This document shows, in pieces, positions 1-14,106 of a DNA stretch of 57,269 bases. Both the position numbers and the translations under genes were made by a program. The notes under the pieces are model-generated. The model worked only from the letters and a program-made list of their open reading frames with translations, did not search any database and had not been told where the DNA came from. This DNA is from Candidatus Parepulonipiscium sp. PG-Nuni2H_MBin01 (GTDB lineage Bacteria; Bacillota; Clostridia; Lachnospirales; Cellulosilyticaceae), in NCBI GenBank assembly GCA_001994995.1, contig MDJM01000083.1, positions 1 to 57,269 of the forward strand. Direction: 5' to 3'. Position 1 is the stretch's first letter; every line of letters begins with the position of its first letter.

Positions 1-2560
1 GTGACTGGGCCCTTGGAGAGGAGCGGTCTCTTAATACTTCTCAGTTATTATAACAAAAAGATTTAAAATTAGCTGCTACAACTCTTTTTATTCAAATGTG
101 ACATAGCAACCATGTTTGTCAAACCTCTCCTAAATCTTCATGTAGCATGGCTTGCCTCTCAAGAGGTCTTTTTGTGAAGCACTTTCGTTTCCTACACACT
201 CTGACCTCCTGCACCTTTTCACGTTTGAATCATTGCCGCGTATGTGCTCAACAAGACATTTATTTTGAAAGCCAAACCCGGAAGTCACGCTATCTCGGGC
301 ACAGCCGTTAGCTTGATGCTAGTGAGAAAAGCTCACGATTACTTCTGAAGGACGGAAAGAAACACAGTCACTGCTCGGAACACTTTTTCATCTTTTGAAC
401 CGTCTCAGCAGGATAAGATATATATTAGCAGGTAAGATGTGAGCTGTGTATCTGCGGCTGGATGTTAGCCTCGCTGTTTTATGGCCTATTGTCGTTTCAG
501 GCCGTATTGCTGGCGTACAAGCTGAGCTGCTCTCTTTTCACAGGGATACATCACGTATGGCGCTCTTTACTTCGAAACGGTTTGCGAAGACCCGCGCCTG
601 TCATGATAATTTCCCACATTTAAAGGGAAATAATCGCAGTTATTCGTGTTCGAGCAGGAACATAATGTCGAAGTGTCATATTTTCCAACCATCGACCTTT
701 ATTTCCTTTCATGAAAAGGCCTTGGGAGAGATTTCGGGGCGTTGAGATGTTCATAGTGAAAAATGTTTTCAGTTACAGCTAGTTTAGTGGAGAAAGAGAC
801 ACACACCCCCTTTAATTCAAAACTTTGCGAGAGCATTTTGAGGCACTTTTTGTGTTTCACTTGTTCTCGACACAAATCGAGCACAACCTCGCCATGTAGC
901 ACAGGATTGGGATATGAGAGCATGAGAGTGAAGAGCACAGGTTGAAATAAAAGATATTTGGTATTATTTACAGGGACAGTATTGTGTGTTTGCACGCTGG
1001 CTCCGCTGCTGAAGCCGCCGCAGTGAAATCCTGGCCCTGCTATCATGGCTGTAATGGCTCTATCAAGGCGTCGCAGCACACTGCTTTTGTGATTTTAAAA
1101 ACACCCACTTTCGTTTGTGGACTATAAAGGACTGGATAGATCGTTTTTTAATCTTCATATTTAATCTGTATGTCGCTCCTCCAGTGCAGTATGGACAACA
1201 TCAAGCAGACTATCTGCAAATGACACATTTGGAGGTTTTGTCTACTCTAGAAGACACACACTGATGGATTTGTAAGCAATCTTGCATGATTTTTAAGAAA
1301 ATGTTGATTAATACAAACATAAAATGTCAAACTTAACATGCAGCTGAAAATGATACAATAAATCATTTAAATCCTGGTAGTGTGTATTTCTTAACTGCTT
1401 ATCATAACATGCTTTGTAGTCTTAAATAGCACATTTCCACCTAATAATTTCTCTTCACAGATTAGGTTGGCTGCTAAACATGTGGTAGATAGAATATTGA
1501 GGCAGACTGCATGTAAAATGGGAAACGTGTTGCAACATTTGCACAGAAACTACCATGTTGGGCAGGTCTGTAATTAAAAGAAGCCCCAATGTTTTAAGAT
1601 AAACTGTGTTGCATCAGATCTGATCCTGCAGGTTCAGTATCCCGCTGATGATTCCTCTTCCTGTTCCTTGTTAATCTGATTCGGATCTGGGATGACTGAT
1701 GGGGATCGTTGTTGTGTTGTGGCTGGTTTTGTCTGCAACTGCGATGTTCTCTGATGAAATATGTGACCCGCCACGAAAACAGGCAGGATCTTACAAAATA
1801 CTGGGATTGATCGGCGAATATTAGCATACACTTATTCTATACCACCACTGGCGATTAGAAACTCTCCATAACTCACTTTACCAGAGCTGACAAAGTGTCC
1901 CGAGAGGCTGATGTGTAAAGGACACAAGCTTTTCTTATGAGACTTTCATGGTTCTAATCTGGAGTTACTTGCCATCGTAGTTGAGTCAAAAGTTTTGTTT
2001 CCAGCTGTTTCTGGGAAGGAGTTTCAAATGGCTCTTTTCCACGAGGTTTTATTCATTATTTCACAATAGTCAGATTTAGTTGGTGAAATACACATTACCA
2101 GGATTTTCAGGACACAGTTTCCTCTTTGGCAACTGAATCATTAAGGGACACCTTTACTACACAGATTTGCACATGTTTACACCTTGTTATCAACCCATTA
2201 ATAAAGAAAAAGCTCAAACCCTGCTGTCTTGTTACATTACTGCTAATATGTTGGGCTGTTATTGTCATCACATTTGTTTTTATCCGCATCAGCAAGGACT
2301 CTGGGCATCATCTACATACTGTATACATTTAAAAGACTTAAAAGATCCAGTTTGAATCAGATATGAGCTGTGATTGAGGGCTGCATGATGGATGCATTAA
2401 TTTAATACATGAGCTGTTGTGCTGATATCATAGAGGACATAGCAAGGCAGTGATGCTTTGTAACTGCCTCTGAGGATCTCTCAGCATGTAAAATGTAAAG
2501 TTATCTTGTCATTTTCTTCCAACAAATTAAGTTGATATATACATTTTTTTTTTTCATCAG
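1..2560. other. Vertebrate (fish) non-coding DNA upstream of phf6
   Basis: This stretch has no bacterial-style gene: no long open frame follows a ribosome binding site, and stops are frequent in all six frames. It carries poly-T and poly-A runs and lies directly upstream of two recognisable vertebrate phf6 coding exons, so it is read as promoter, non-coding first exon and first intron of that gene. The short open frames here are chance. No transposon, tRNA or other RNA gene could be recognised. Confidence 0.75.
300..431 (+). other. phf6: Possible non-coding first exon of fish phf6
   Basis: A consensus splice donor, CAG followed by GTAAGA, sits at 429-437 with the cut after 431. The known vertebrate phf6 gene begins with a non-coding exon followed by an intron before the exon holding the start codon, which fits. 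The left edge given is arbitrary because no transcription start can be read. The spliced message would join 431 to 2561. Confidence 0.3.
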
Positions 2561-2590
2561 AACTGTTGGCAAATAATAAAGCTGTCAGTC

Positions 2591-2722
2591 ATGTCAGGAC
2601 AGAGGAAAGGAGCCGCAGCACGACTGCCTAAATGTGCCTTCTGCAGAACCAACCGGGACAAGGAGTGTGGGCAGCTGCTAGTGTCCGACAGCCAGAAGGT
2701 GGCAGCCCACCATAAGTGCATG
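2591..2722 (+). CDS. phf6: Fish phf6, first coding exon (PHD finger protein 6)
   Basis: The exon is flanked by a poly-T tract plus CAG acceptor ending at 2560 and a GT donor at 2723. After 30 bases of 5' UTR the ATG opens 44 codons whose core, CGQLL...[10 protein letters not shown], is the start of the first atypical zinc-finger domain of PHF6, with the Cys and His metal ligands in CAFC and HHKC. The coding part ends exactly after KCM, where the human exon also ends from memory. PHF6 is a vertebrate nuclear/nucleolar chromatin protein with no bacterial homologue, so this is host DNA. The bacterial expression signals seen later in the window are absent. Confidence 0.9.
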
Positions 2723-3327
2723 GTGAGGAGAGCACATTGTTCTCAAACAGCCTGTGATCCTTCAGGCATTTCTGCAAACCCTGTCACATATGTATATGCT
2801 TGAACATATGTTAACAGTTTAGAAAAAAGAAAGGGGGGAAAAAAAAAACTTGTGGATTTTTCTATGTTGTTGTTGTTTTATTTAGAAAACATCTGCATTT
2901 GATAAAACAAAAAAAAAAAAAGAAAAACTATGAAAACCAGACACAATAAATTGGTTTATCAGGAAAAAAAAAGACATTTTTCTCCCCTAAATTATCTTGA
3001 ATTGCTCCAATTTGTCGTTCGTCACCAGGGTGATCCTGACCTTAATGTTCAGAAAACACAGCTCTACTTCCTCTCACACGCCAATAAAAAAATTAGGACT
3101 AAATAAAAAGGAAAAATCAGGATTGTATTCTAAGGGTATATCACTGTGAAATCAGCGTTGTTGCTAGTGGAAAAACGTGAAATCTACGTTAACCTCTACA
3201 GTGAAGTGGAAAATGGTGCATCAGCAGTAGTCAAGGAAAACAAAAATGAAGATATTGCACTCATTATCATCGTTATGTCGGAAGACTGCACACACCAATG
3301 CATGCCCTGTCTGAATGTCCTCTGCAG
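2723..3327 (+). other. phf6 intron
   Basis: The segment begins GTGAGG and ends with a pyrimidine-containing CTCTGCAG acceptor at 3320-3327. It contains several A and T homopolymer runs and no plausible gene. Its borders are fixed by the protein match of the two flanking exons. Confidence 0.85.
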
Positions 3328-3417
3328 CTCTTCTCCTCGGCCCTGGTCACATCTCACTCAGACAGTGAAAACATTGGAGGATTTTCAATTGAGGATGTGA
3401 AAAAGGAGATCAAGAGG
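3328..3417 (+). CDS. phf6: Fish phf6, second coding exon, truncated at the chimeric junction
   Basis: Thirty codons read [18 protein letters not shown] and then [12 protein letters not shown], matching vertebrate PHF6 directly after KCM. In PHF6 the next residues are GTKL; here the reading changes at 3418 to bacterial collagen-like sequence. The human exon has 34 codons (from memory), so four codons and the donor site are missing. The last fish bases, AGG for Arg, differ by one base from the GGG of the bacterial repeat, which puts the switch at about 3415-3418. This is an artefactual end of the gene, not a natural truncation. Confidence 0.9.
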
Positions 3418-5132
3418 ATCAAGGTATTCAAGGAGAGCAAGGTATTCAAGGGGAAAAAGGAGAGCAAGGGGATCAAGGTATTCAAGGAGAGCAAGGAGAA
3501 CCAGGTCCTAAAGGAGATCAAGGGGATCAAGGTATTCAAGGTCCAGAAGGTCCAGAAGGTCCAGAAGGTCCAATGGGTCCAGAAGGTCCAATGGGTCCAG
3601 AAGGTATTCAAGGAGAGCAAGGACTTCAAGGTGAAAAAGGAGATCAAGGGGATCAAGGTATTCAAGGTCCAGAAGGTCCAATGGGTCCAGAAGGTCCAGA
3701 AGGTCCAGAAGGCCCAGAAGGTCCAGAAGGTCCAAAAGGTCCAAGAGGTCCAAGAGGTCCTCAAGGTGAAATGGGTCCTCAAGGCGAAATGGGTCCAGCA
3801 GGTCCACAAGGGTGCGAAGGTCCAGAAGGTCCACAAGGCCCAGAAGGTCCAGAAGGCCCAGAAGGTCCAGAGGGCCCTCAAGGCGAAATGGGTCCAGCAG
3901 GTCCAACAGGAGCTACAGGAGCTACAGGTGCTACAGGAGCAACAGGCCCAATGGGTCCAGAAGGCCCAGAAGGCCCAGAAGGTCCAGAAGGCCCAGAAGG
4001 TCCAGAAGGCCCAGAAGGTCCAATGGGTCCAGAAGGTCCAATGGGTCCACAAGGTCCAGCAGGTGCAGTAGGTGCAACAGGTGCTACAGGCGCAACTGGC
4101 GCAACTGGCCCAATGGGTCCTCAAGGTCCAATGGGACCACAAGGTCCAGCAGGTGCAGTAGGTGCAACAGGTGCTACAGGTGCTACAGGTGCTGAAGGCC
4201 CAGAAGGCCCAGAAGGTCCAGAAGGTCCAGAAGGTCCAGAAGGTCCAATGGGTCCAGCAGGTCCAACAGGAGCTACAGGAGCTACAGGAGCTACAGGTGC
4301 TACAGGCGCAACTGGCGCAACAGGCCCAATGGGCCCAATGGGTCCAGAAGGCCCAGAAGGCCCAGAAGGTCCAATGGGTCCAGCAGGTCCAACAGGAGCT
4401 ACAGGAGCTACAGGCGCAACAGGTGCAACTGGCCCAATGGGTCCAGAAGGTCCAATGGGTCCTCAAGGTCCAGCAGGTGAAAATGGTACTTCAGACACAT
4501 TAGGCTCTGGAAATACAATTATCTATGCTCAAATGATGAATATGCTATTTATATCAATCTCATCATTACAAATCTCAATTGGAGGACCTTACGATAATTT
4601 CGACTCAATTCCTAATATTGAAAACGTAGTAATAAACCTTTATACTAAAGTAGAAAACCTTTGCGAAGGCGAAACTTTCTATGAAAATGTAATCATTCCT
4701 GACCAAACAGGTATGCCACTTGGATTATATAAAGCAGTTGTTAATGCTACTACAAATCCAACTGTAAAAATCCTATCTATTGGCGATGTGCTTGGTGTAT
4801 TTGCTAAAGCAGATTCTGAAATCGGCCAAAAAATTCATAGAAGCGTACTACCATCTGCTTATGAAGGCGCTGAAGCAGTAGGCTCTTCAAACTGGTACGA
4901 ATTTTTAGTAAGGCATATGTCAGATAACAGAGACCCTAAACTAAGCCTAACATTATACAGCTACAACGGGCAAGCAAAATTCCGCGACGCAGAATTAATA
5001 GGATTAACAAACTCATTCCTAAGAGTAAGAATAACTGGAGCTAACAACGTAGTAGAAATAGGAACAATTGCTCTTAACGAAATTGCAAGTGTAGAATATT
5101 CTTACGAACCTAAAACAAAAAAGCGTAAATAA
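3418..5132 (+). CDS. Collagen-like Gly-X-Y repeat protein with C-terminal globular domain (5' end lost)
   Basis: Bacterial collagen-like protein, about 571 codons present; the true start, signal and any N-terminal domain are missing because the upstream DNA is fish. From 3418 to about 4480 nearly every third residue is Gly, in cassettes [18 protein letters not shown] and GATGAT. The rest is a roughly 210-residue non-repetitive domain, beginning near TSDTLGSGN and ending KTKKRK, that I do not recognise. Known relatives are trimeric surface or exosporium filaments, so a cell- or spore-surface role is likely. All frames across the repeat stay open because the DNA repeat lacks stops; the frame given is supported by Gly-X-Y and by the unique tail. 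The repeat number may be wrong in a short-read assembly. Confidence 0.85.
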
Positions 5133-5144
5133 CAATTGAAAACA

Positions 5145-5291: not shown

Positions 5292-6230
5292 ATGGATAAT
5301 TTATATTTAGCACTTACTGTAATATTTCCGTTGTTTTGCATGATGAGTTTAGGGTACTTTCTTCAACGCATCAATGTTTTAGACAAACCTTTTGTAAAAA
5401 AATTAAACCTCTTATGTTTTAACGCTTTTTTACCTTTAGTTATTTTTCTTAACATTTATAATAGCGATTTTTATAGCTTATTTTCTCCTAAACTTGTAAT
5501 TTTTGGTATGGCTAGTGTCACTGTCGCTTTTATAGCTTTAATGATTATAGTTCCTAAGTTTGTTGAAGAAGACATTAATAGGGGTGTTGTGATTCAAGGA
5601 ATTTTCCGTAGCAACTTTGTTTTATTTGGTGTTCCTATTGCCATCTCTTTGTATGGCAGCGAAAACGCGGGAACTGCTGCTATTTTAACTGCTTTTATTG
5701 TTCCTCTTTTTAACTTGTATTCAGTTGTCGCACTTAACTTATTTTCTGGTACACAGTTTAGTAAAATAGAACTTGTAAAGAAAATTTGTAAAAACCCTTT
5801 AATCATAGGCGCTATGGTTGCTTTCTTATTCGTTTTCACCGGCTTTAGAATGCCTTCAGTTTTAGAAAGTACTATTGCTGATATTGCGGCTATTGCAACT
5901 CCTCTTGCCTTAATTACACTGGGAGGCAGCTTTCAATTTGGGGATTTAAAAAAGTTTAAAGAACTCCTTACTATATCTGTGTTTGGTAAGCTAGTTATTA
6001 TTCCTGTCATCTTCTTATCTATAGCAATATTGCTAGGTTTTAGGGATGTTGAACTTGCTTCTTTAATGATTATGTTAGCTAGTCCTACAGCAGTTGCATC
6101 CTTTACTATGGCTCAAAGTGTTAACGCTAATGATGAACTAGCAGGACAGATTGTTGTTATGACTTCTTTATTTTCCATCTTTACTATTGTCTGCTGGATT
6201 AGCGTTCTTAAAAATTTTGGATTTATGTAA
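5292..6230 (+). CDS. AEC-family (auxin efflux carrier-like) permease
   Basis: 312 residues, very hydrophobic, with about ten predicted membrane segments. The N-terminal GYFLQRINVLDKPFVKKLN segment followed by LCFNAFLPLVIFLNIY, and the C-terminal LASPTAVASFTMAQSVNAND, are typical of the AEC/malonate permease family of inner-membrane carriers. Bacterial members move organic acids or unknown anions; the substrate cannot be read. The ATG follows AAGGAGG by four bases. A terminator separates it from guanine deaminase, so the two genes are at most partly co-transcribed, although their adjacency may mean a related substrate. Confidence 0.85.
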   Translation: MDNLYLALTVIFPLFCMMSLGYFLQRINVLDKPFVKKLNLLCFNAFLPLVIFLNIYNSDFYSLFSPKLVIFGMASVTVAFIALMIIVPKFVEEDINRGVVIQGIFRSNFVLFGVPIAISLYGSENAGTAAILTAFIVPLFNLYSVVALNLFSGTQFSKIELVKKICKNPLIIGAMVAFLFVFTGFRMPSVLESTIADIAAIATPLALITLGGSFQFGDLKKFKELLTISVFGKLVIIPVIFLSIAILLGFRDVELASLMIMLASPTAVASFTMAQSVNANDELAGQIVVMTSLFSIFTIVCWISVLKNFGFM

Positions 6231-9050: not shown

Positions 9051-9773
9051 TTATTTAAACGTAATTTTTTCAACAAAAGTACTTATTCTAGTATCTGTAC
9101 AACTAAACAACTGCTCTATTGGTCCATGTGAGAGTACGTGCCCTTGTTCAATAAAAATATAATAGTCAGCGAACTTTCTCGCAAAATTTAATTCATGCGT
9201 CACTATAATAATATCAGCCTCTTGCTTAAGCTCTATAAGCGTTTTCATAACTTCGTAAGCTAATTCAGGGTCTAACGCACTTGTAGGTTCATCTAGCAAT
9301 AGCAAATGTGCTCCTGATATTAACGCTCTTACTATTGCAACACGTTGTGCCTGCCCCCCACTTAACTGATGTAATTTTTTATCTTTATGCTCTAAAATCC
9401 CTACCTTTAAAAGCCACTTTTCCGCTAACGTATACGCTTCTATTTTAGCCATTTTATAAGTATGAATTAAATGTATCGTTATATTTTCCATCACAGTTAA
9501 ATTAGGAAATAGATTATCATGTTGAAACACATAGCCTACGCCTTTAAGGTAATCTTTATACTCACTTAATCCCACAATTTCTTTATTATTTAACTTAAGC
9601 GACCCACTATCAGCCTGCTCAATAGTTCCAATAATTTTAAGCAGTGTACTTTTACCTCCTCCACTAGGACCTACAATTGCTAATGTCCTTATGTTTTCTA
9701 AGTTAAGTTGCTGAATATTTAAAGCTTTTTCTTTACCAAATGATTTTATGAAATTGTTTATAATTATATCCAT
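9051..9773 (-). CDS. Amino-acid ABC transporter ATP-binding protein (GlnQ-like)
   Basis: 240 residues with a full set of ATPase motifs: Walker A GPSGGGKST, signature LSGGQAQRVA, Walker B LLLLDEPTSALD and the switch His in IIVTHELNFA. Polar amino-acid importers have this arrangement. The start chosen is the ATG at 9773, one base after the permease stop, with GGAG overlapping the end of the permease; a TTG at 9785 is in frame but would lie in that ribosome binding site. It is last in an operon of binding protein, permease and ATPase. Confidence 0.9.
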   Translation of the reverse strand: MDIIINNFIKSFGKEKALNIQQLNLENIRTLAIVGPSGGGKSTLLKIIGTIEQADSGSLKLNNKEIVGLSEYKDYLKGVGYVFQHDNLFPNLTVMENITIHLIHTYKMAKIEAYTLAEKWLLKVGILEHKDKKLHQLSGGQAQRVAIVRALISGAHLLLLDEPTSALDPELAYEVMKTLIELKQEADIIIVTHELNFARKFADYYIFIEQGHVLSHGPIEQLFSCTDTRISTFVEKITFK

Positions 9774-9774
9774 T

Positions 9775-10515
9775 TTAATCTCCAACTTTTCTATTTAACC
9801 AATATGCAAAAAAGCTTAGTGGTATTGTGATTGTTAAGTAGCCAATCGCTAAAATTACATACCCGGTAACAAAATCAAGTGTTCGCGAGTTAAATAAATT
9901 TATATATTGTGTGAATTCCGGTACTGAAATTAATGATAGCAGCGCTGTGCTTTTTACTAATAATGCAAAGTGGGTTGTTAACGTTGGCAAAGTTGCCTTA
10001 ATCATTTGCGGTAATATTATCTTTTTTATACACACGCTTTTTGGCAGTTGTAGTATATGCATCATTTTAAATTGTTGAGGTGAAATATCATTGTATGCTC
10101 CCTCAAATGTTTTGGCAAAGTAACATGACATATATAAAGAAAGAATTAACGTTCCGCCAATAATCGGGTCGCGTATTCCTATAGCTGATGTTAGGAAAAA
10201 ATATAATACTATAATGTGCACCATTAATGGTACTCCTAACATAATTTGCGTAAAGGCAATGTATAAGTAATTTAGCGCATCATATTTTGATATAGTCATA
10301 AAAAATAAGACTGCACTAAATGTTAAGCTAACTACTAAAGCAACTAAGCTTAGCCAAATAGTTCGTCTATACCCCTCAGTTATTAAATCGCTATATCTTG
10401 CTAGTGCTTCTAAGTTAATATAAAAGTCACGGTTTTGTGATACTACAAATGCTAGCAATAGTACAAAAATATTAACTACGATTAATATATCCCTTGCTTG
10501 TTTCCATCTATCCAT
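9775..10515 (-). CDS. Amino-acid ABC transporter permease (HisM/GlnP type)
   Basis: 246 residues with about five or six membrane segments. The central QIMLGVPLMVHIIVLYFFLTS and the loop EGAYNDISPQQFKMMHILQL, followed by ILPQMIKATLPTL, match the EAA-loop region through which such permeases contact the ATPase. It probably forms a homodimeric channel, since only one permease gene is present. It sits between the binding-protein gene (93 bases upstream, with a hairpin in the gap) and the ATPase (one base apart). Confidence 0.88.
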   Translation of the reverse strand: MDRWKQARDILIVVNIFVLLLAFVVSQNRDFYINLEALARYSDLITEGYRRTIWLSLVALVVSLTFSAVLFFMTISKYDALNYLYIAFTQIMLGVPLMVHIIVLYFFLTSAIGIRDPIIGGTLILSLYMSCYFAKTFEGAYNDISPQQFKMMHILQLPKSVCIKKIILPQMIKATLPTLTTHFALLVKSTALLSLISVPEFTQYINLFNSRTLDFVTGYVILAIGYLTITIPLSFFAYWLNRKVGD

Positions 10516-10542
10516 AATATATCCTTTCTAAAATTAAGGTGC

Positions 10543-10586
10543 TCCCAAGTCTCCCCCTCTATGGGGGGCTTTGCTGGCACTTGGGA
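10543..10586 (-). repeat. Intergenic hairpin between binding-protein and permease genes
   Basis: Nested inverted repeats TCCCAAGT/ACTTGGGA and CCCCC/GGGGG. In binding-protein-dependent systems such hairpins often protect the upstream mRNA segment so that more binding protein than permease is made; that role is inferred. Confidence 0.6.
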
Positions 10587-10608
10587 TTTGCATATTAACT
10601 AAGTTTGT

Positions 10609-11427
10609 CTAGAAGAAATAATCTAGTCCATATGATTCATACTTTTCAACTTCTTCTTTTAAGTATTTTTCGCGCATCTCATCAAAGAAACCATCAGCCT
10701 TCACTTGTGCTAATGCTTCGTTAATTTCAGAAAGTAAAGCTGTATCATCTTTTCTAACTCCAACTCCCCAACCTTGCGTTCCTGGCAACGGGTCTAGCAA
10801 CAATTTTATATTGCTTAAATTTTGCGTGCCTTCTATTAAACTTAATGGGTCATATATAAAAGCTGTACTTTGCCCATTGTTTACATCTAGTAGTCCAGCG
10901 GATACTTCTGTAAAACTTTTAATAGTAGCATTTTCTAAATTAGCCATAGCCCACATCTCGCCTATTGTCCCTAACTTTACTGCCACAGTATATTCCTCTT
11001 TATCAAGCTCGCTATAATGAGTTATTGGTGCGTCTTTGTATACCGCTAAAGTAATGTCAGACTTAGCATACTCATCGCTAAAGTTTATTGATTCTAATCT
11101 CTCCTCAGTTATACTCATAGACGAAATAATCATATCAATATTTCTAGTTTGCAACGCCGGAATAAGACCAGCCCAATCTAGGCTTCTAATCTCCACCTCG
11201 CGTCCCATCTTTTGTCCTAAAGCTTGTGCTAATTCTACTGATACTCCTGCTGGATTACCTTCTTCATCAATTGTTTCAAACGGTGGAAACTTAAGTTCCA
11301 TTCCTACAACTAATGTTGCGTCGCTAGATAGTGGGGCATTTTCATTTTGTCCAGAGAATAGCCAAAACAAAATGGCACCTAAAAACACTATAAGTACCGC
11401 AACTTCGATTTTGTATTTAGTTTGCAT
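10609..11427 (-). CDS. Amino-acid ABC transporter substrate-binding protein (family 3)
   Basis: 272 residues. Residues 8-25 form a hydrophobic export/anchor segment without an obvious lipobox Cys; the rest is a two-lobed family 3 binding domain: VVGMELKFPPFETIDEEGN, then the SLDWAGLIPALQTRNIDMIIS and SMSITEERLESINFSDEY segments that shape the amino-acid site. The substrate is a polar or charged amino acid or related compound. The ribosome binding site AAAGGAGA precedes the ATG. First gene of the operon, preceded by a foldback element. Confidence 0.9.
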   Translation of the reverse strand: MQTKYKIEVAVLIVFLGAILFWLFSGQNENAPLSSDATLVVGMELKFPPFETIDEEGNPAGVSVELAQALGQKMGREVEIRSLDWAGLIPALQTRNIDMIISSMSITEERLESINFSDEYAKSDITLAVYKDAPITHYSELDKEEYTVAVKLGTIGEMWAMANLENATIKSFTEVSAGLLDVNNGQSTAFIYDPLSLIEGTQNLSNIKLLLDPLPGTQGWGVGVRKDDTALLSEINEALAQVKADGFFDEMREKYLKEEVEKYESYGLDYFF

Positions 11428-11448
11428 ATTATATCTCCTTTCTATAGT

Positions 11449-11565
11449 CTTGTTAATTTAAAGTGGAAAAAATAAGCTCCATCTATACTGACGCATCCGC
11501 AGGCCCCAATTCCCCCTTTTGAGAGGGATGTCAGCTATGCTTACAGAGGGAGTTAAATTAACAAG
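11449..11565. repeat. Foldback (MITE-like) element in the leader of the ABC operon
   Basis: Perfect 13-base inverted repeats, CTTGTTAATTTAA at 11449-11461 and its complement at 11553-11565, enclose about 90 bases that are much richer in G and C than the surroundings and contain further inverted pieces (CTGAC/GTCAG, CCCTCT/AGAGGG-like). It carries no gene. It may be a small non-autonomous mobile element or a structured 5' leader. Confidence 0.5.
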
Positions 11566-11577
11566 CTCCATAATTTT

Positions 11578-11606
11578 ATATTATATCCATGCTCCATTTT
11601 TGTAAA
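11578..11606 (-). promoter_or_regulatory. Possible promoter of the amino-acid ABC operon
   Basis: On the reverse strand TTTACA, 17 bases, TAATAT (an overlapping TATAAT has a 15-base spacer). It lies just upstream of the foldback element, which would then be transcribed as part of the 5' leader. Confidence 0.4.
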
Positions 11607-11699
11607 GTAGGCACTATTTAGTGCTATAGTTACTTTATGATACTATTTTATTACAATTGGGTTATAATATACATATCAGTTTAAAAAGGAGTTGATATT

Positions 11700-12017
11700 A
11701 TGTCGTTACCACAGTGTCCTGTTGAAGCAACGTTATCCTTAATCAGTAATAAGTGGAAAATATTAATCATACGTGATTTACTCGGTGGCTCCAAACGTTT
11801 TGGAGAACTAAAATCTTCTATCGGCCAAATTTCCCAGAAAGTTTTAACTGCTAATCTTAGGCAAATGGAAGCAGATATGTTACTAACTCGTAAGGTATAT
11901 GCAGAAGTACCTCCTAAAGTTGAGTATACTTTAACTGACCTAGGCTACAGTTTAGATTTAGTTTTAAATGCAATGCATATATGGGGCACCCGATACCAAG
12001 GTCAAATTAAACTGTAA
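11700..12017 (+). CDS. HxlR-family transcriptional regulator
   Basis: 105 residues, a single winged-helix domain. CPVEATLSLISNKWKILIIRDLL, FGELKSSIGQISQKVLTANL and the wing VPPKVEYTLTDLGYSL are hallmarks of HxlR (MarR-like) regulators, which often sense redox or aldehyde stress through the N-terminal Cys (here C6). It is divergent from the ABC operon, which it may or may not control. AAAAAGGAG precedes the ATG. Confidence 0.9.
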   Translation: MSLPQCPVEATLSLISNKWKILIIRDLLGGSKRFGELKSSIGQISQKVLTANLRQMEADMLLTRKVYAEVPPKVEYTLTDLGYSLDLVLNAMHIWGTRYQGQIKL

Positions 12018-12020
12018 AAA

Positions 12021-12045
12021 AAAGCTGCTCTTACGAGCGGCTTTT
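12021..12045. terminator. Bidirectional terminator
   Basis: AAAGCTGCTC, TTAC loop, GAGCGGCTTT, with A and T tracts on both sides, between converging HxlR and serine hydrolase genes. Confidence 0.8.
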
Positions 12046-12048
12046 AAT

Positions 12049-14106
12049 TTAGCGAAGTATATTGGTATGAAAAATCGTTTCATCTTCTCCAGCAAAAATT
12101 ATAGTTGAACCTGCTGATATTTCCACATCAGTTGCATCTTCTATTATAGAGCTATACACACATTGATTTTGCTTATTATATACCGCAAACATTCCTTCCC
12201 CTTCTATATCAACTGCTAAAAGTATATCATGCGCCACTGTTACATACTGAGCAGCTTCAGACATAGTGTAAATGCCCTCTCGTAGTGGCTTTATCCCACT
12301 CGCATCCATATAAATGCCAATGCTGGACTTAGCATATTCCACTCCATTTTCAATATAAAATTTAATATACTGCCCATCACTACCATTACTGGAAGGCAAT
12401 GCTACAGGTGTAACTAAATCGTTCTCATTTAAAATCCGCATATTACAGAAATAACCTTCTATAGGCATGCTATTTGGTAAAGTCAAAACTTGCAAATGCT
12501 GAGGATACATCATAGAAGAATATTTCTCGCTTACTAAATAATACTTCTTACCAAACCTTTGTTGCCAAGCGTATGCAATTTCAGCTGGTATACGCACTGG
12601 CTCAATTTTCTGCATTTGATACATCGTAACAGTATCTTGCAAAAAGCCTGTATTTATTACTGCTGAAGCTTTTATATAAATATGCCCATTTTTCTCCTCC
12701 ACAAACTTTAATCTAGATGTACCAGCGTAATCACTAAACACCCCATCGCCGTTATGGATAAAAGTTTGTATAGGGAATTTCGGCATATTTGGCAAATACA
12801 CATTTAGCGTTCCATTTGGATTTAACTTAATCTCATAAGTCCCCATTAAATCAGCATATAACCCTTCATATCTAAATAGCGGTTCTGGAATTTCCATTTT
12901 AATTGGTTTCTTTGGCACAATCAACTGCGGACGGAGCATTTTGCCACTTAAAATTAACTCATCAGCTAAAATTTGTTCAGCCACCATCTGATTAACCGTG
13001 GAACTTCCTCCCGAACTTAATATAGCTATTGCAATATCATGCTCTGGAGCTACCACTAAGCTAGCATGCGAGCTAAAAGTATCCCCATTTTTATTTACAA
13101 CTTGAATTCCCTGCTCATCAAAAGGATACAACTTAACATTATCCCATCCTAACCCAGCATCTAACCTACCCTTCTCAGGTCCATGGTGAATTCCCTTTCT
13201 ATACTCTGGTATTAAAGTTTGTGCCACAGCCCGCTTTGAAAGAGTTTTATTATTTAAAAATATTCTGCCAAAGTAACATAAATCTTTAGCCGTACTATAT
13301 ATTCCCCCTGTGCCTATAACATTAACTGTTTCAATTGGAAAATCCGTAGATGTGCCCATATAAGTTGGAAGGTAAGTTTGTGATAATTTATTTCTATCAA
13401 AATTATCTTGAGGGGTCTTTGTATTTATCATACTTAGTGGTTCAATTAAATACCTATGCAAAAACTCTGTATACGTTAAACCACTCACTCTCTCCACTAT
13501 TAATTCTGCTACCGAAAACCCTTGGTTATTATACAAAGTTAATTCCCCTGGCGAAAACTGCAACTTCTGAACTTCCAATCTACTTAATAAAGTTTCATGG
13601 TTTAACGTATCATTATCATCATATAAAAAAGCATTTTGTAAGTTTTGCCCTAAAAAACCAGCTGAATGATTAAGCAACATTCTTACCGTAATATCTTTAT
13701 AGCGCTCATCTGCCATCTTAAAATCCGGAACATACGTTGTAACAGGCTCATCTAAACTCACCAACTCTAAATCTACTAGCTTCATAATAGCAACTGTAGT
13801 AAACATCTTACTTATAGACCCAATGGCATACATACTATTAACATCAGCTCCATCAACAGATTTTACACCACATAAAACAATCTCATCTTTCTTTATCATA
13901 GCATACTGAACACTTTTAGCCGATTCCAAAATATAGTCCATATACTTATCAACTCTATTATCTCTATCTTCTCTAATTCTATCTGCTATTCTCTCTTGCG
14001 TACTTGGTATGTATTCCCCCCCATGTACTTTTGGACTAAACCCTATTGTGGGGAACAACAATACAAGACTTAACCCTATCGCTAAAAACTTAGTTCTACT
14101 CTTCAC
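12049..14106 (-). CDS. Secreted beta-lactamase-family serine hydrolase
   Basis: 685 residues. A signal peptide (SRTKFLAIGLSLVLLFP) leads into a class C beta-lactamase/penicillin-binding-like domain over roughly residues 40-370: catalytic SxxK as S97-I-S-K100, YxN as Y192-N-N194. The third motif is HAS (in SSHASLVV) in place of HSG/KTG. The remaining 300 residues form a C-terminal beta-rich region with no domain I recognise. Relatives are esterases, D-aminopeptidases or peptidoglycan hydrolases rather than true drug-resistance enzymes. The start is a GTG at 14106, eight bases after AGGAG; an upstream GTG at 14124 would precede this site. It acts outside the membrane. Confidence 0.85.
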   Translation of the reverse strand: MKSRTKFLAIGLSLVLLFPTIGFSPKVHGGEYIPSTQERIADRIREDRDNRVDKYMDYILESAKSVQYAMIKKDEIVLCGVKSVDGADVNSMYAIGSISKMFTTVAIMKLVDLELVSLDEPVTTYVPDFKMADERYKDITVRMLLNHSAGFLGQNLQNAFLYDDNDTLNHETLLSRLEVQKLQFSPGELTLYNNQGFSVAELIVERVSGLTYTEFLHRYLIEPLSMINTKTPQDNFDRNKLSQTYLPTYMGTSTDFPIETVNVIGTGGIYSTAKDLCYFGRIFLNNKTLSKRAVAQTLIPEYRKGIHHGPEKGRLDAGLGWDNVKLYPFDEQGIQVVNKNGDTFSSHASLVVAPEHDIAIAILSSGGSSTVNQMVAEQILADELILSGKMLRPQLIVPKKPIKMEIPEPLFRYEGLYADLMGTYEIKLNPNGTLNVYLPNMPKFPIQTFIHNGDGVFSDYAGTSRLKFVEEKNGHIYIKASAVINTGFLQDTVTMYQMQKIEPVRIPAEIAYAWQQRFGKKYYLVSEKYSSMMYPQHLQVLTLPNSMPIEGYFCNMRILNENDLVTPVALPSSNGSDGQYIKFYIENGVEYAKSSIGIYMDASGIKPLREGIYTMSEAAQYVTVAHDILLAVDIEGEGMFAVYNKQNQCVYSSIIEDATDVEISAGSTIIFAGEDETIFHTNILR

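Follow-up and report, generated by a model that had tools for sequence, protein, structure and literature searches.

A probable artefactual join between vertebrate phf6 DNA and a bacterial collagen-like gene at a contig end of a gut-symbiont draft genome

Junctions between unrelated pieces of DNA have been described for MDA, where they mostly show 2-21 complementary bases; displaced 3' ends prime on a new template, and extension is possible even where the annealed end contains some mismatches (PMC1855051). The window analysed here, a stretch of 57,269 bases, is the entire contig C83 of a draft genome comprising 88 contigs and 2.70 Mb (95.6% complete, 3.3% contaminated). A conserved protein of this genome shares 74-79% identity with proteins of Epulopiscium sp. 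AS2M-Bin001, Niameybacter massiliensis and Cellulosilyticum spp., which places the bacterium near Epulopiscium, a group that, according to an excerpt of PMC4789555, is at home in the guts of surgeonfish. We conclude with a probability of roughly 0.96 that C83 is an artefactual host-bacterium chimera, in which phf6 DNA of the fish host (1-3417) passes at 3415-3418 into the repeats of a bacterial collagen-like gene.

The left part of the contig, positions 1-3417 on the plus strand, was assigned to the phf6 locus in vertebrate genomic DNA on the basis of CpG content, ORF coverage, a host/bacterium score and a protein match. Exon 2 of phf6 (2561-2722, of which 2591-2722 encode 44 aa) is preceded by a polypyrimidine tract with a CAG acceptor and followed by a GTGAGG donor at 2723. 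The subsequent intron (2723-3327) reads directly as GT...AG, and exon 3 (3328-3417), with an AG acceptor before 3328, continues exon 2 in frame for another 30 aa until it is truncated at ...KEIKR. Given that the phf6 piece contains an intron, it stems from genomic DNA and not from cDNA. The two joined exons encode 74 aa, for which a phmmer search gave PDB entry 4nn2, PHD finger protein 6, as the closest solved structure (E 6.4e-10), with an alignment reaching the final EIKR. They represent the N-terminal part of the first extended PHD domain of PHF6, the 4nn2 chain being the second PHD-like repeat of the protein. Between 1001 and 3500, the CpG observed/expected ratio amounts to 0.26-0.38 and the ORF coverage to 0-0.17, compared to a genome mean of 0.91, and the leave-one-out host/bacterium score is above zero across all of 1-3417. 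Contiguity is the one observation in favour of a bacterial origin of this stretch with a chance likeness to PHF6; we consider such a coincidence negligibly probable in view of a match extending over two in-frame exons with splice sites, the low CpG content and the low ORF coverage. The phf6 match itself points to a vertebrate, and that this vertebrate was a fish is our inference from the gut-symbiont setting.

To the right of the join, positions 3418-5132 (plus strand) carry a 5'-truncated bacterial collagen-like gene, consisting of Gly-X-Y repeats followed by a C-terminal part of 217 aa. The repeats match the Pfam family Collagen (PF01391) with an E value of 1.1e-55 and 185.7 bits at a Pfam cut-off of 27.2. 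Upstream, the collagen frame stays open for only a few codons of host sequence, being closed by a TGA stop at 3390-3392, and its earliest start codon lies at 3573, well within the repeats, so that the 5' end of the gene is missing. The original prediction had described the bases 1-3417 as not bacterial, the phf6 coding sequence as ending at KEIKR and the collagen gene as lacking its 5' end, and these descriptions agree with the exons, the composition, the 4nn2 alignment and the reading frame reported here. The PHF6 side on the one hand, and the collagen ORF with the bacterial genes on the other, belong to two organisms and differ in composition.

The C-terminal part of the collagen-like protein including its stop codon (4479-5132, plus strand) has no Pfam family at its cut-off, and no homologue of it was found in genome_contigs. 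Its product is 29% identical to a collagen-like protein of the relative G020 (L008; E 2e-13) and 28% identical to the product of a collagen gene on contig C9 of the same genome. Divergent versions of this part of approximately 217 aa (4479-5132; L012 261-2297 on C9; L008 in G020) occur in three out of 59 genomes, its own included. The draft genome contains three collagen loci, namely the one on C83 without a 5' end, an intact gene on C9 (678 aa) and a minus-strand gene on C73 whose start lies at base 589 and which is cut off by the contig edge (L011 1-589). The N-terminal segment encoded by this C73 5' part is rich in Gln, Asn and Cys. The 5' half absent from C83 has its best candidate in C73, and neither an overlap of contig ends nor conserved gene order proves that the two contigs belong together. 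A transporter gene at 5292-6230, next to the collagen gene, and the DUF711-like gene of C73 were looked up in 24 relatives and are far apart in the single-contig ones. No contig was found to carry the genuine bacterial sequence that belongs to the left of 3418, C73 being a candidate only.

A direct comparison revealed that the 18 bases at 3397-3414 in the host exon are identical to 3631-3648 within the Gly-X-Y repeat, both on the plus strand, and that 3397-3433 and 3631-3667 align over 37 bases with a single mismatch (A3415 versus G3649). This 18-mer at the join is the longest word common to 1-3417 and 3418-5140, the runner-up having 13 bases. When 1-3417 was shuffled 500 times with its dinucleotides preserved and compared with the collagen gene, the longest common word reached at most 16 bases and never 18 (0/500). 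Since the word sits exactly where host and collagen sequence meet and exceeds all shuffles, the join and the shared word are not independent of each other. The one mismatch in the 37-base alignment places the join point, to which no strand applies, at 3415-3418: A3415 is the first base of an Arg codon (AGG) on the host side, GG at 3416-3417 is compatible with both sides, and the sequence is bacterial from A3418 onwards. The junction sequence is AGATCAAGAGGATCAAGG. The 18-base identity and the single mismatch had been predicted exactly to the base, and the predicted position of the switch, at about 3415-3418, was upheld.

The host base A3415 directly follows the 18-base word at its 3' side and thereafter only GG is common to both sequences, so the word alone would not carry an exact k-mer walk. 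A blocked walk makes a chimeric molecule or a mismatch-tolerant merging of sequences likelier. Judged by its pattern, the join seems to reflect a chimeric molecule and not an exact k-mer overlap; its assignment to amplification or to assembly is inferred. Most likely, a single strand with the 3' end GTGAAAAAGGAGATCAAGAGG would have been copied from the host exon during DNA amplification. The end of this strand (...AAGAGG) may have annealed to the near-identical collagen repeat by 18 matches, one mismatch and then GG, and may have been extended on the collagen template; such an extension would yield precisely the sequence observed, and the chimeric product would then have been assembled as one contig. 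The same artefact could also have been produced by the assembler, if it fused two independently assembled pieces, either by local gap-filling or across a short overlap in which mismatches were tolerated, no chimeric molecule being involved. Contig ends of the draft genome overlap by up to 99 bases (99, 98, 96, 91, 85), which is typical of de Bruijn assembly from short reads and points to an assembly of this kind; in addition, contigs commonly break in collagen repeats, and all of the six joins described below are located at contig ends. We therefore regard assembler merging as a serious rival, possible at less than even odds, although an exact k-mer walk (k of at least 20) would be blocked if the bacterial template resembles 3631-3667, with A3415 kept and followed by GG, and although some joins lie outside repeats, such as the one in spoIIP on C9.

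The host DNA of C83 lies at a contig end, as the window covers the complete contig, and we found host-like DNA at one end only in six contigs (C9, C23, C59, C67, C69 and C83) when the contig ends were read across the draft genome, except for C52 (all N, 1-2082) and, on their right-hand side, C86 and C87. The five positive ends other than that of C83 do not consist of coding repeats. The start of C67 (1 to approximately 1710; L081) contains a myosin-X exon (5kg8, E 1.5e-13), and the end of C69 (approximately 9580-12237; L083) contains exons of focal adhesion kinase 1 (4ny0, E 5.5e-36). The start of C23 (1 to approximately 1400; L037) is LINE-like and is presumably a fish LINE. The end of C9 (21803-23495; L023 15803-17495) and the start of C59 (1 to approximately 1720; L073), the weakest case, exhibit low CpG and low ORF coverage and no coding match. 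The pieces of phf6, myosin-X and focal adhesion kinase 1 are unrelated host loci, and a mutual comparison of all six host-like pieces yielded no matches. In 40 relatives, the LINE-like DNA of C23 found matches of only about 27-36 bases, and hence no contamination in common. A host/bacterium composition score applied to internal windows of 600 bases (n=2072) was positive in a few cases; one of these stood out clearly and lies in open coding sequence on C40, and the handful of others stayed below 1.5. These positive windows scored lower than the contig ends or lay within open coding sequence, and no host-like internal stretch was detected among the 2072 windows. A point against the chimera reading is that the host DNA continues for 1.4-3.4 kb past the joins, which implies that host reads were deep enough to assemble or that the chimeric molecule was amplified.

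Several candidates were rejected in the course of this survey. C73 and C84 both begin with low-CpG sequence that was first suspected as host DNA but consists of coding repeats; that of C84 (1-1589; L015) encodes a long repeat protein rich in Gln, Pro and Val, which is truncated by the contig start. A 20-base match of the C23 join to C39 was dismissed as a join word, as it represents a recurring bacterial upstream motif. For the C-terminal 25 residues missing from a methyltransferase on C69, only short matches at chance level were obtained.

For two of the sister joins, the bacterial continuation can be followed to another contig. The join on C9 cuts a bacterial spoIIP gene (PF07454), and the edge of C79 is identical to C9 over 84 bases up to the join (...CAAAAGGTGTGTC). 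Past these 84 bases, C79 proceeds into the N-terminal part of spoIIP, whereas C9 proceeds into host-like DNA. As C79 carries spoIIP onward, the host-like sequence is not the true chromosomal continuation at C9. C9 harbours two tandem spoIIP-like genes (L023 13514-15883, minus strand), and a third, partial match is present on C44 (L123 3031-3669). On C67, the join cuts a lonB-like protease gene, the N-terminal part of which is located at the edge of C61, with approximately 38 residues of the protein in neither contig. The six host-like contig ends, together with the C9 join that is contradicted at base level by C79, strengthen the reading of C83 as a chimera, which the original prediction had already proposed. 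They also bear on the possibility that fish DNA was truly inserted into, or laterally acquired by, the bacterial chromosome. Contiguity of the sequence and the fish-gut habitat of the bacterium's nearest relatives speak for such a transfer, but the phf6 piece keeps an intact intron and breaks off within an exon, the six host pieces are unrelated and occur at contig ends only and none internally, and C79 holds the uninterrupted bacterial continuation for C9, so that we deem a transfer very improbable. It is extremely improbable that the joins are real DNA of the gut, for instance host DNA integrated at short matches in some cells, with the intact version seen in C79 coming from others.

Over the six contig ends, the host-like DNA that is fused to real bacterial genes in the deposited genome adds up to about 12.6 kb. 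False fusion proteins will be called at these joins by gene finders, and automated searches could report a false vertebrate-to-bacterium transfer of phf6, myosin-X or focal adhesion kinase 1. Marker-based estimates of contamination would probably miss such pieces. The pair of C9 and C79 demonstrates that a host-bacterium join can be proven without reads.

In comparison with known systems, the collagen-like gene resembles the bacterial collagen-like proteins of PF01391 in that long Gly-X-Y repeats are followed by a C-terminal part of non-collagen type, but differs from them in that C83 holds the 3' part only and in that the C-terminal part has no Pfam match. As to the join, C83 shares with MDA chimeras (Lasken and Stockwell 2007, PMC1855051) a short complementary word at the junction, made up of 18 identical bases, one mismatch and GG and longer than in any shuffle; with 18 bases it falls within the range of 2-21. 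MDA chimeras are, however, mostly inverted and intramolecular, whereas C83 joins two organisms, and the comparison would apply to its origin only if this sample was amplified by phi29 polymerase. Host sequence in contigs filed as bacterial is also typical of the contamination of draft genomes screened by FCS-GX (PMC10898089). In C83, the host part is fused to real bacterial sequence, and curation therefore calls for trimming of 1-3417 rather than removal of the whole contig, and likewise for trimming of the five other ends once these have been checked against fish genomes.
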